Shown here piece after piece: positions 28,754-56,678 of a DNA stretch of 64,000 nt (positions within the stretch are counted from its first letter, which is position 1; each line of letters begins with the position of its first letter). Location of the stretch: positions 36,781 through 100,780 of the forward strand of contig NZ_NJIC01000018.1 of the NCBI RefSeq assembly GCF_013620825.1, in the 5' to 3' direction. The notes beneath the pieces are model-generated. The model did not search any database and was not told the DNA's origin. It worked only from the letters and a program-made list of their open reading frames with translations. Source of the stretch: Rhodanobacter sp. PCA2 (GTDB lineage Bacteria; Pseudomonadota; Gammaproteobacteria; Xanthomonadales; Rhodanobacteraceae). A program made the translations under genes and the position numbers.

Positions 28754-28770
28754 CGCCGATCTTGCGTCGT

Positions 28771-28818
28771 CCTTGATCGCGAAGATCCAACGGGCGGCCA
28801 TCCATGGCCGTACTCTTC
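28771..28818 (-). repeat. Dispersed copy of the 63-bp array element (between clpP and clpX)
   Basis: Read on the minus strand it gives GAAGAGT-ACGGCCAT-GG-ATGGCCGC, then CCGTTGGATCTTCGCGATC. This is almost the same as a unit of the tandem array at 55588-56094, with about two substitutions over this stretch. It lacks the second half of the unit's second hairpin. It is inverted relative to the copy on the other side of clpX. Confidence 0.85.
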
Positions 28819-30278: not shown

Positions 30279-30302
30279 CTGTCGCGGCTGCGACATCCAG
30301 CC

Positions 30303-30339
30303 GCGGCCATCGATGGCTGCGCGTTTGATCGTCGCGAGC
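30303..30339 (+). repeat. Diverged dispersed copy of the 63-bp array element (between clpX and lon)
   Basis: GCGGCCATCGATGGCTGC then GCGTTTGATCGTCGCGAGC, aligned to the array unit GCGGCCATGGATGGCCGC then CCGTTTGATCTTCGCGATC, shows about six differences in 37 bases. Same relative spacing and order of blocks, so I count it as a homologous element. Confidence 0.7.
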
Positions 30340-30454
30340 CCGGGCCGCATGGCCGCGTTCGCTTGAGTAATCCGCCCGCTGCCTCCACTTGACGAGACAT
30401 GGTGCCCGGCGCAGTGTCGGGCCTGTCCCCCGGATTCCCGCGAGAACCTCCTCA

Positions 30455-54033: not shown

Positions 54034-55377
54034 ATGAAAGTCACGATCTTCGGCACCGGCTATGTCGGCCTGGTCACCGGCGCCTGCCTCGCCGAGATGG
54101 GCAACCACGTGGTCTGCGTCGACATCGACGCCGGCAAGGTCGAGCGGCTGAGGCGCGGCGAGATTCCGATCTACGAACCCGGCCTGGAGCCCATCGTCCG
54201 GCGCAACCATGCCGGCGGCCAGCTCGATTTCACCACCGATGCCGCGCCGGCGATCGCGCACGGCGAGGTGATCTTCATCGCCGTGGGCACGCCGCCCGAC
54301 GAGGATGGCAGCGCCGACCTGCAGTACGTGCTGGGCGTGGCCAGGACCATCGGCCAGCACCTCGATCGCTACGCCGTGGTGGTGAACAAGTCCACCGTGC
54401 CGGTGGGCACGGCCGACCGCGTGCGCACGGCGATCGCGACGGAACTGGCGTCGCGTGGCGCGGGCGTCGAGTTCGACGTGGTCTCCAACCCCGAGTTCCT
54501 CAAGGAAGGCGACGCGGTGGAGGATTGCCTGCGCCCCGACCGCATCGTGATCGGCAGCTCCAGCGCGCACGCCGTGGCCGTGCTGCGCAAGCTGTACGCG
54601 CCGTTCAACCGCAACCACGAGCGCACCGTGGTGATGGACGAGCGTTCCGCGGAGCTGACCAAGTACGCCGCCAACGCGATGCTGGCCACCAAGATCAGCT
54701 TCATGAACGAGGTCGCGAACATCGCCGAGCGCGTGGGCGCCGACGTGGAGCTGGTGCGCCAGGGCATCGGCGCCGATCCGCGCATCGGCTACCACTTCAT
54801 CTATCCCGGCGCCGGCTACGGCGGCTCGTGTTTTCCCAAGGACGTGCAGGCGCTGGAGCGCACCGCGCGCGGCGTGGGCTACCAGGCGCGCCTGCTCGGC
54901 GCCGTCGAGGCGGTGAACCACGACCAGAAGACCAAGCTGTTCGAGCTGATCTCGCGCCACTTCGACGGCGACCTGAAGGGCAAGACCATCGCGCTCTGGG
55001 GCCTTGCCTTCAAGCCGAATACCGACGACATGCGCGAAGCCTCCAGCCGCCGCCTGATGGAGGCGCTGTGGGCCGCCGGTGCGCAAGTGCGGGCCTTCGA
55101 CCCGGAGGCTCGCGAGGAAACCCGGCGCATCTACGGCGAGCGTGCCGACCTGGTGCTGTGCGAGCACGCCTACGATGCGTTGCAGGGCGCCGACGTGCTG
55201 GCCATCGTCACCGAGTGGAAGGCGTTCCGCAGCCCGGACTTCGCGCGCATTCGCGCCGCACTGGGCACGCCGGCGGTCTTCGACGGCCGCAACCTCTACG
55301 ACCCCGCCGTGGTGGAAGAGGCCGGCCTGGCCTACTACGGCATAGGCCGCGGCCGCAGCCTGCGGGTGGCGCGCTGA
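54034..55377 (+). CDS. ugd: UDP-glucose 6-dehydrogenase
   Basis: 447 residues. NAD-dependent oxidation of UDP-glucose to UDP-glucuronate, a precursor of exopolysaccharide and of aminoarabinose for lipid A. N-terminal Rossmann motif [31 protein letters not shown], central dimer helix, and catalytic Cys in [22 protein letters not shown] binds substrate. No other sugar-nucleotide genes are adjacent. Its TGA overlaps the slyX ATG. Confidence 0.97.
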
Positions 55378-55589
55378 TGGACGCGATCGAGCGGCGCCTC
55401 GCCGATCTGGAAGTGCGGCTGACCTTCATCGACGACACCGTGCAGGCGCTGGCCGCCGCCGATGCCGACCAGGCCATGCGCATCGTCGAACTGGAACGCC
55501 TGCTTCACCTGCTGCGCCAGGAACTGCAGAGCGTGCGCCTGGGCGCCGGGCATGACCCGCACAGCGAACCGCCGCCGCCGCACTATTGA
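55377..55589 (+). CDS. slyX: SlyX family protein
   Basis: 70 residues; ATG overlaps the ugd stop (TGATG). A short coiled-coil protein ([20 protein letters not shown], then a leucine/Glu-rich helix to about residue 50) with the Pro/His-rich SlyX tail PHSEPPPPHY. Function unknown. The first unit of the tandem array starts inside its stop codon (55588). Confidence 0.93.
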   Translation: MDAIERRLADLEVRLTFIDDTVQALAAADADQAMRIVELERLLHLLRQELQSVRLGAGHDPHSEPPPPHY

Positions 55590-56094
55590 AGAGTGCGGCC
55601 ATGGATGGCCGCCCGTTTGATCTTCGCGATCATGGATGATCGCAAAAAATGGAAGAGTGCGGCATGGATGGCCGCCCGTTTGATCTTCGCGATCATGGAT
55701 GATCGCAAAAAATGGAAGAGTGCGGCATGGATGGCCGCCCGTTTGATCTTCGCGATCATGGATGATCGCAAAAAATGGAAGAGTGCGGCATGGATGGCCG
55801 CCCGTTTGATCTTCGCGATCATGGATGATCGCAAAAAATGGAAGAGTGCGGCATGGATGGCCGCCCGTTTGATCTTCGCGATCATGGATGATCGCAAAAA
55901 ATGGAAGAGTGCGGCATGGATGGCCGCCCGTTTGATCTTCGCGATCATGGACGGTCGCAAGAAATGGAAGAGTGCGGCATGGACGGCCGCCCGTTTGATC
56001 CTCGCGATCATGGACGAACGCAAAAAAATGGAAGAGTGCGGCCATGGACGACCGCCCGTTTGATCTTCGCGATCATGGACGATCGCCAACGAAA
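55588..56094. repeat. Tandem array of eight ~63-bp units
   Basis: Units begin (GAAGAGTGCGG) at 55588, 55652, 55715, 55778, 55841, 55904, 55967 and 56031. Six of the seven start-to-start distances are 63 or 64, and the spacing from 55652 to 55967 is exactly 63. Units 2-5 are identical. Unit 1 has one extra C; units 6-8 carry substitutions. Each unit contains GCGGC(C)AT-GG-ATGGCCGC and GCGATCAT-GG-ATGATCGC, two hairpins on the same plan, and three GATC sites. No stops interrupt several frames on both strands. There are no unique spacers, so it is not a CRISPR array. Two diverged single copies occur near clpX. Confidence 0.97.
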
Positions 56095-56120
56095 AACACC
56101 AGACACACCGGATCACGATC

Positions 56121-56678
56121 ATGGCCGAATCCCTGCGCGACCAGCTGCTGAAGAGCGGTCTCGTCAAGCAAGTCCGCGAGGAAAAAAAGCGCGGCGCCGA
56201 AAGCAAGGGCAGGCCGGCAGGCAAGCCCCAGGGTCACGGCGGCAAGCAGCCGGCGCCGCGCCGCAGCCAGGAAGACATCGACCTTGCCAAGGCCTACGCG
56301 ATCCGCGCCCAGACCGAGGCGAACGAACGCAAGCGTGCCCAGCAGGAAGCCGAGGAACAGGCGCGCCTGCGTCGAGAGCGCAAGCTGAAGATCCAGCAGC
56401 TTCTGGAAGGCAAGGCCCTGAACAAGGCCGAGACCGAGCTGGTGCGCAACTTCGAGTACGGCGGCAAGATCCGGCGCATCCACGTGGATGCGGACCAGCT
56501 CGCGGCGCTCAACGCCGGCGAGCTGGGCGTGGTGCAGCAGGCGGGGCGCTACGTGCTGGTCGGCCGCGAGATCGCCGAACAGGTGCGGACGATCGACGCG
56601 CATCTCCTGGCCTTGCTGGTCGAACCCGGCGCGGCCGCCAGCGACGACGACGGTGTGCCCGACGACCTGGTGTGGTGA
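56121..56678 (+). CDS. DUF2058 family protein (YaiL-like)
   Basis: 185 residues. The family start MAESLRDQLLKSGLVKQVRE is clear. A highly charged Lys/Arg/Gln-rich helix (about 20-100) precedes the conserved C-terminal part (LEGKALNKAETELVRNFEYG, then GKIRRIHVDADQL). Annotated in databases as a nucleoprotein or polynucleotide-associated protein without firm function. Lies 26 bases after the tandem array. Confidence 0.9.
   Translation: MAESLRDQLLKSGLVKQVREEKKRGAESKGRPAGKPQGHGGKQPAPRRSQEDIDLAKAYAIRAQTEANERKRAQQEAEEQARLRRERKLKIQQLLEGKALNKAETELVRNFEYGGKIRRIHVDADQLAALNAGELGVVQQAGRYVLVGREIAEQVRTIDAHLLALLVEPGAAASDDDGVPDDLVW

Follow-up and report, generated by a model that had tools for sequence, protein, structure and literature searches.

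An eight-unit tandem array behind slyX in Rhodanobacter sp. PCA2 and the dispersed two-hairpin repeat family to which its units belong

In Rhodanobacter sp. PCA2, the genes slyX and DUF2058 are separated by a tandem array of nearly identical units, which lies in a 64,000-nucleotide stretch of genomic DNA analysed here as a whole (the window, to which all positions refer). The locus raises the question of whether such an array is a local peculiarity, which the first-pass annotation had taken it to be when it proposed a recently expanded contingency or typing locus, or one manifestation of something more widespread, and what might keep it where it is.

The array between slyX and the DUF2058 gene

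The presence of eight head-to-tail units between the two genes, claimed from the letters of the sequence, was confirmed by TRF, unit splitting and Pfam searches of the neighbouring genes. The array occupies positions 55588–56094 of the forward strand; TRF reported 55588–56086 with a period of 63, 7.9 copies, 96% matches and a score of 901, against just 55 for the next array in the window, which is unrelated, and the matches to model R1 range from 71.6 to 88.5 bits. Splitting at GAAGAGTGCGGC placed the unit starts at 55588, 55652, 55715, 55778, 55841, 55904, 55967 and 56031, with lengths of 64, 63, 63, 63, 63, 63, 64 and 64 bases, respectively. The upstream gene is slyX (55377–55589, forward strand; PF04102, 59.5 bits, cut-off 30), whose TGA stop codon runs into the start of unit 1, and the downstream gene is the DUF2058 gene (56121–56678, forward strand; PF09831, 99 bits, cut-off 25); at 62% identity or higher, the DUF2058 protein has 36 matches, 26 of them named Rhodanobacter and five Dyella.

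Unit 1 contains hairpin 1, GCGGCC-ATGGAT-GGCCGC (55595–55612, forward strand), and hairpin 2, GCGATC-ATGGAT-GATCGC (55626–55643, forward strand), both indicated by sequence, covariation and fold. Units 2–5 (55652–55903) are identical to one another and have a one-base deletion in hairpin 1 of each, units 6 and 7 (55904–56030) have the same deletion plus private substitutions, and the diverged unit 8 (56031–56094) is free of it, all on the forward strand. GCGGCAT thus stands in place of GCGGCCAT in six of the eight units, one C of GCGGCC having been lost. The earlier statements that four units are identical and that six share a deletion hold for units 2–5 and 2–7, as do the other points of that description that were checked, with the minor qualification that unit 7 has 64 bases because an additional A, in an A-run one base longer, offsets the loss. 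Column 11 is a gap in just eight of 205 well-scoring copies from three genomes and in six of the window's eight units; since it is so rarely a gap in the family, the missing base is a deletion and not a family form. The simplest reading of the unit pattern is that the array likely grew by local expansion after the deletion, and this part of the earlier interpretation stands; gene conversion could also have produced the pattern. The exact count of eight is uncertain, because the assembly consists of 62 contigs and units 2–5 comprise about 250 identical bases, and is given as assembled. TRF also reported a 31-bp period with 60% matches at 55915–56016, and the two hairpins of a unit may descend from one duplicated hairpin.

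Open frames of 156, 236 and 213 amino acids run through the array. The array was nevertheless judged to be non-coding, and a coding repeat was rejected, because the spacing of units across the family is a multiple of three in only 60 of 160 cases. A Pfam match to VapB_antitoxin (24.1 bits, cut-off 23.4) falls in the translated repeat and was judged spurious; the frame concerned (55583–56224, reverse strand) passes the cut-off and is an annotation hazard. Searches of 55300–56200 for a sigma-70-like promoter and for a terminator-like site (a G+C-rich hairpin followed by a T-run) found none of either. A comparison of 55300–56300 with all Rfam families gave no match above the cut-off, PrrB_RsmZ reaching 13.5 bits against a cut-off of 44; the best match of RF00166 in the PCA2 genome (20.2 bits, same cut-off) lies outside the array, and identity with a known RNA family was rejected.

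The repeat family and its places

The array did not turn out to be an isolated locus, since much of the genus carries dozens to more than 100 scattered copies of its unit in each genome. The whole-genome search recommended in the first-pass annotation, carried out with BLAST and the array as the query, returned 32 places in the PCA2 genome, and a covariance model of the unit found 68 copies at E ≤ 0.001 and 74 at E ≤ 0.01. Two congeners contain 118 and 143 copies at E ≤ 0.001, among 150 candidates scored in each. Model matches were found in 35 of 61 searched genomes (92–93 candidates scored in each, counts near 92 being lower bounds), including 32 of 37 in the family of Rhodanobacter and 3 of 24 outside it, with one to two matches apiece in the latter three. 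Phage and plasmid collections yielded no match, and an origin from phages or plasmids was rejected. A replication-strand orientation bias was likewise set aside, the strands of the matches listed for one genome (G010) being mixed when inspected by eye. The window itself contains a single copy between clpP and clpX, oriented opposite to these genes (28762–28817, reverse strand; R1, 69.7 bits), and a degenerate copy upstream of lon, behind a terminator-like hairpin that follows clpX (30297–30350, forward strand; R1, 31.9 bits; terminator example L105). No description of the family was found within the part of the literature that was covered, and it is provisionally regarded as undescribed so far.

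Each unit comprises two hairpins joined by a linker; both show covariation and share the tip C[A-N-GGA-Y]G, the commonest forms being GCGGCC-ANGGAY-GGCCGC and GCGATC-ANGGAY-GATCGC. The unit model has 57 positions, and the spacing of units is mostly 62–67 bases. Across 63 aligned units, taken from several genomes, 94.4% of the stem cells are paired, and two-sided stem changes number 23, compared with 4.5 in shuffles and no more than 5 when the partners are slid; RNAalifold alone recovered hairpin 2 whole and only three of the six pairs of hairpin 1. Single-strand folding of the window array against shuffles gave z = −2.2 for the GGA strand and a better value, z = −8.7, for its complement. Units below 40 bits were left out when columns and stems were counted (37 of 242 in the column set, 52 of 384 in the stem sets). 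Among the remaining 205 well-scoring units, from three genomes, the first loop reads A (197), N (T 139, A 24, C 23, G 19), G (204), G (198), A (193), T/C (204), and the second reads A (195), N (G 77, T 48, A 48, C 23, nine gaps), G (203), G (200), A (198), C/T (194); the closing C of the loop is present in all 205 units in both hairpins.

The placement of the repeat was studied at 200 loci of nine genomes, with genes predicted by a codon-usage script whose calls matched the genes known from the window locus. The loci of PCA2 were taken down to weak matches and those of the other eight genomes from the top of the match lists, a choice that favours well-conserved copies and possibly shared sites. 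Six loci contained no cluster at the nhmmer threshold; in all, 384 units were found, in 224 clusters, of which 118 are single and 106 tandem (two to eight units). The window array is the longest cluster in this sample, the next longest having five units. As many as 215 clusters are intergenic, six overlap a predicted gene and three lie at edges. With the repeat read as plus, both flanking genes run in the same direction in 59 cases and in the opposite direction in 102, and they are convergent in 42 and divergent in 12. The GGA strand is therefore opposite to the mRNA in 102 of 161 co-directional clusters and has the sense of the mRNA in 59 (p = 0.0009); a first pass over 120 loci of three genomes had the same direction (39 clusters in sense, 61 in antisense, p = 0.035).

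Copies are concentrated just behind genes. Among the 59 sense clusters, 15 have their first model base overlapped by the upstream stop codon and 18 lie within −2 to 0 of it, and a second group of 19 is found 40–70 nt from the stop; antisense clusters start exactly 3 nt after the stop in 17 of 102 cases and at 8–12 nt in 29. In the first arrangement of either orientation the nearest hairpin begins 5 nt past the stop. Altogether, 88 of the 161 co-directional clusters are located no more than 15 nt from the upstream stop, a further 40 are farther off, behind a terminator-like site, and 33 fit neither description; the terminator finder was a simple script, and ten clusters scored both as having a terminator and as lying within 15 nt of the stop may be false, since that scan also extended 30 nt into the gene. 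Such a site accompanies 66 co-directional clusters: 36 have it upstream of the repeat, 19 within the repeat or at the repeat's edge and 11 downstream, so many copies are situated beyond a terminator.

Both flanking genes are common to different species in 55 groups of clusters, and the pairs within these groups have the same orientation in 179 cases and the opposite one in six; at the clpP–clpX junction, a cluster in the same orientation is present in all nine locus-sampled genomes. In 35 of these groups, the members have different numbers of units. Many sites are thus common to species, and the tandem number changes faster than the place; the comparison covered one genome per species, and the differences in unit number are differences between species. 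The comparison of the slyX–DUF2058 locus in relatives, also recommended earlier, gave the same picture: against eight units in PCA2, four of 65 named relatives have 2, 2, 2 and 1 units (one of the two units in L031 is weak, at 14.8 bits), and 61 have none. The distance from the slyX stop to the DUF2058 start was measured by means of a codon motif for the SlyX C-terminus, not gene calls, which matched 64 of the 65 loci (all except L092). At 57 of the 60 measured loci free of the repeat the gap is 6–70 nt, the other three having 107 (L072), 128 (L029) and 135 nt (L091). In L029, a Rhodanobacter denitrificans MAG, a different palindromic sequence of the CGTCATCCCGG...CCGGGATCC type is found behind slyX; therefore, the junction seems to accept several kinds of repeat.

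Relation to REP elements and a possible role at gene ends

The direct observations (the dispersion of the family, its structure, position and shared places, and the between-species differences in unit number) are best joined by the reading that the array probably arose by local head-to-tail amplification from a single copy of a REP-like 3'-end repeat, which is palindromic, non-coding and dispersed in the genomes of Rhodanobacter-like bacteria. The family is REP-like in its behaviour, occupying a narrow zone behind stops and terminators, at the same junctions and in the same orientation across species, with a varying number of tandem units. Tandem growth may have proceeded by slippage or unequal recombination, and the original spread perhaps by a transposition-like process. 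At slyX–DUF2058, where the gap is normally short and operon-like, the array would be transcribed and would place up to 16 hairpins in the mRNA.

According to the accessible text of PMC3733652, GTAG REPs are high-copy, palindromic and extragenic, are located at 3'-ends and have termini able to supply a stop codon (REP elements are also treated in PMC2817692); the same text places a GTAG (or CGTC) tetranucleotide at the hairpin foot and also describes head-tail REP dimers. The repeat is likewise a high-copy extragenic palindrome, it often lies behind stops and sometimes supplies the stop codon, and it forms clusters and shows compensatory stem changes. Unlike REP/BIME elements, it has two hairpins per unit, an exclusively head-to-tail arrangement and conserved A-N-GGA-Y tips. 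The hallmarks of REP elements, whose absence speaks against the preferred reading, were sought in several ways. The 63-unit alignment has no conserved GTAG or CGTC tag at the hairpins, and none of the 106 multi-unit clusters is of mixed orientation, that is, none contains inverted (BIME) pairs. PF01797 (Y1_Tnp) has no match in four of the ten genomes of the genus with at least 65 model hits, and within 1.5 kb on either side of the one Y1_Tnp gene found in PCA2 the best repeat match is partial, at 8 bits. That gene (L095, G000:C27:15409-15735), the only Y1-type transposase match in the PCA2 genome, is not flanked by the repeat. Elsewhere, in a relative (G031), the Y1 transposase family has 18 matches, and the identical scores of many of them suggest a recent expansion of the IS200/IS605 type.

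The shared places in the 55 groups also weigh against amplification of a mobile REP-like repeat, since they also fit a long-standing function. It is a serious, if somewhat less probable, alternative that the repeat is a positively selected 3'-end or boundary element, whose hairpins stabilise the upstream mRNA or aid termination and so keep the copies in place. The placement behind stops and terminators and the common position and orientation across species, such as at clpP–clpX, agree with this, as does the pattern of stem mismatches: on the transcribed strand of co-directional clusters, counted once per cluster, G-U mismatches number 71 and A-C mismatches 39 (p = 0.003; p = 0.004 in the test by context), and linker transitions, which served as a control, show no significant effect of context. 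However, the G-U excess is no stronger where no terminator lies upstream (39 to 24, p = 0.08) than where one does (32 to 15, p = 0.02); since it is not confined to the former clusters, RNA-level selection on the stems is not claimed, and the excess may be mutational in origin. Around the window array there is no terminator-like site at all within 55300–56200, and a site of this kind, separate from the repeat or overlapping it, is found in 65 of 162 co-directional gaps with the repeat versus 32 of 223 without it, although gaps with the repeat are also longer; together with the many copies situated beyond a terminator, this argues against a 3'-end or boundary element.

Hairpin tips, RsmA and the meaning of the family

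RsmX/Y/Z and CsrB RNAs contain several hairpins with A-N-GGA tips, and several such tips are also present in the repeat. One csrA-like gene was found in the PCA2 genome, with 52 of 53 Pfam positions matched and the open frame read. Read as RNA, hairpin 2 gives UCANGGAYGA, which fits the RsmE optimum 5'-A/UCANGGANGU/A-3' (Schubert et al. 2007, as quoted in the part of PMC6849547 available), and its variation is freest at the two N positions that the quoted consensus leaves open. From these features comes the reading that the hairpins are putative RsmA sites and that a transcribed array of 16 hairpins would titrate RsmA, the window array being sense-oriented in a normally short gap; as a precedent, the accessible text of PMC7694677 describes RsmU of Xanthomonas, a 3'UTR-derived RsmA-binding RNA with four GGA motifs.

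Conservation of the tips was assessed in 63 disjoint orthologous pairs of units of at least 25 bits, the most similar unit pair being taken in tandem clusters. Differences occur in 43 of 117 comparisons at the N columns and, about sevenfold less often, in 25 of 504 at the A and GGA columns, although the model scoring, by which conserved copies are favoured, may make this contrast sharper. For the sixth loop base the figure is 33 of 126, for the stems 64 of 1259 when their closing pair is set apart, for that pair itself 5 of 251, and for the linker, its TGA excepted, 119 of 621; in the 21 pairs from single-unit clusters, the values are 15 of 41 for N and 9 of 168 for A and GGA.

The tips are kept, yet RsmA sites in mRNA predict the sense orientation, and the 102 antisense against 59 sense clusters argue against them. 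Nor are the loops better kept in the sense orientation: the A and GGA columns differ in 11 of 120 comparisons in sense pairs and 13 of 272 in antisense pairs, units with two intact loops make up 69 of 91 in sense and 112 of 152 in antisense, and the mean tandem number is alike, at 1.80 and 1.75. In the window, the GGA strand is also the strand that folds less well, and the PrrB_RsmZ score is far below its cut-off; the precedent is weakened as well, since, according to the same part of PMC7694677, RsmA still bound RsmU after all four GGA motifs had been changed. With regard to CsrA/RsmA-sequestering RNAs (RsmX/Y/Z, CsrB, RsmU), the A-N-GGA tips are the sole shared feature; the repeat is dispersed in either orientation to transcription and has no Rfam match above the threshold, and its transcription and binding are putative. 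An RsmA decoy at this locus is consequently unlikely, and it is rather improbable that the whole family evolved as RsmA-binding hairpins whose transcribed copies, above all the 16-hairpin slyX array, act as a distributed sponge tuning RsmA. The puzzle is that a strand-specific tip motif is conserved regardless of the direction of the host gene; a constraint at the DNA level (through a DNA-binding factor or the repeat's own spread), homogenisation of copies or an RNA from the opposite strand are possible causes.

Bacterial VNTR loci are tandem arrays, and the window array resembles them in being one and in having a unit number that differs between species (8, 2, 2, 2, 1); unlike them, its unit is itself a genome-wide hairpin repeat. 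The earlier proposal of a contingency (phase-variation) locus, varying between strains and altering the expression of its neighbours, appears improbable, as no promoter was found in 55300–56200, the array was judged non-coding and the comparison covered one genome per species. That these are genuine REP elements mobilised by a RAYT transposase is very improbable despite the properties shared with GTAG REPs, and RAYT mobility was rejected on the missing tag, the lack of a repeat-flanked Y1_Tnp gene as far as examined and the absence of inverted pairs.

The preferred reading, local amplification of a REP-like 3'-end repeat, leaves a family that behaves as REP elements do without the REP machinery, and whose conserved tips equal the binding consensus of a known regulator. 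These RsmA-like tips are the part of the finding that is worth an experiment. If RsmA does not bind them, the family would be a clear case of a motif resembling a protein site and kept by another constraint; if it does, the copy number of the repeat would act as an inherited control on a global regulon. The repeat may also serve as a marker for typing, and it is a warning against spurious annotation.
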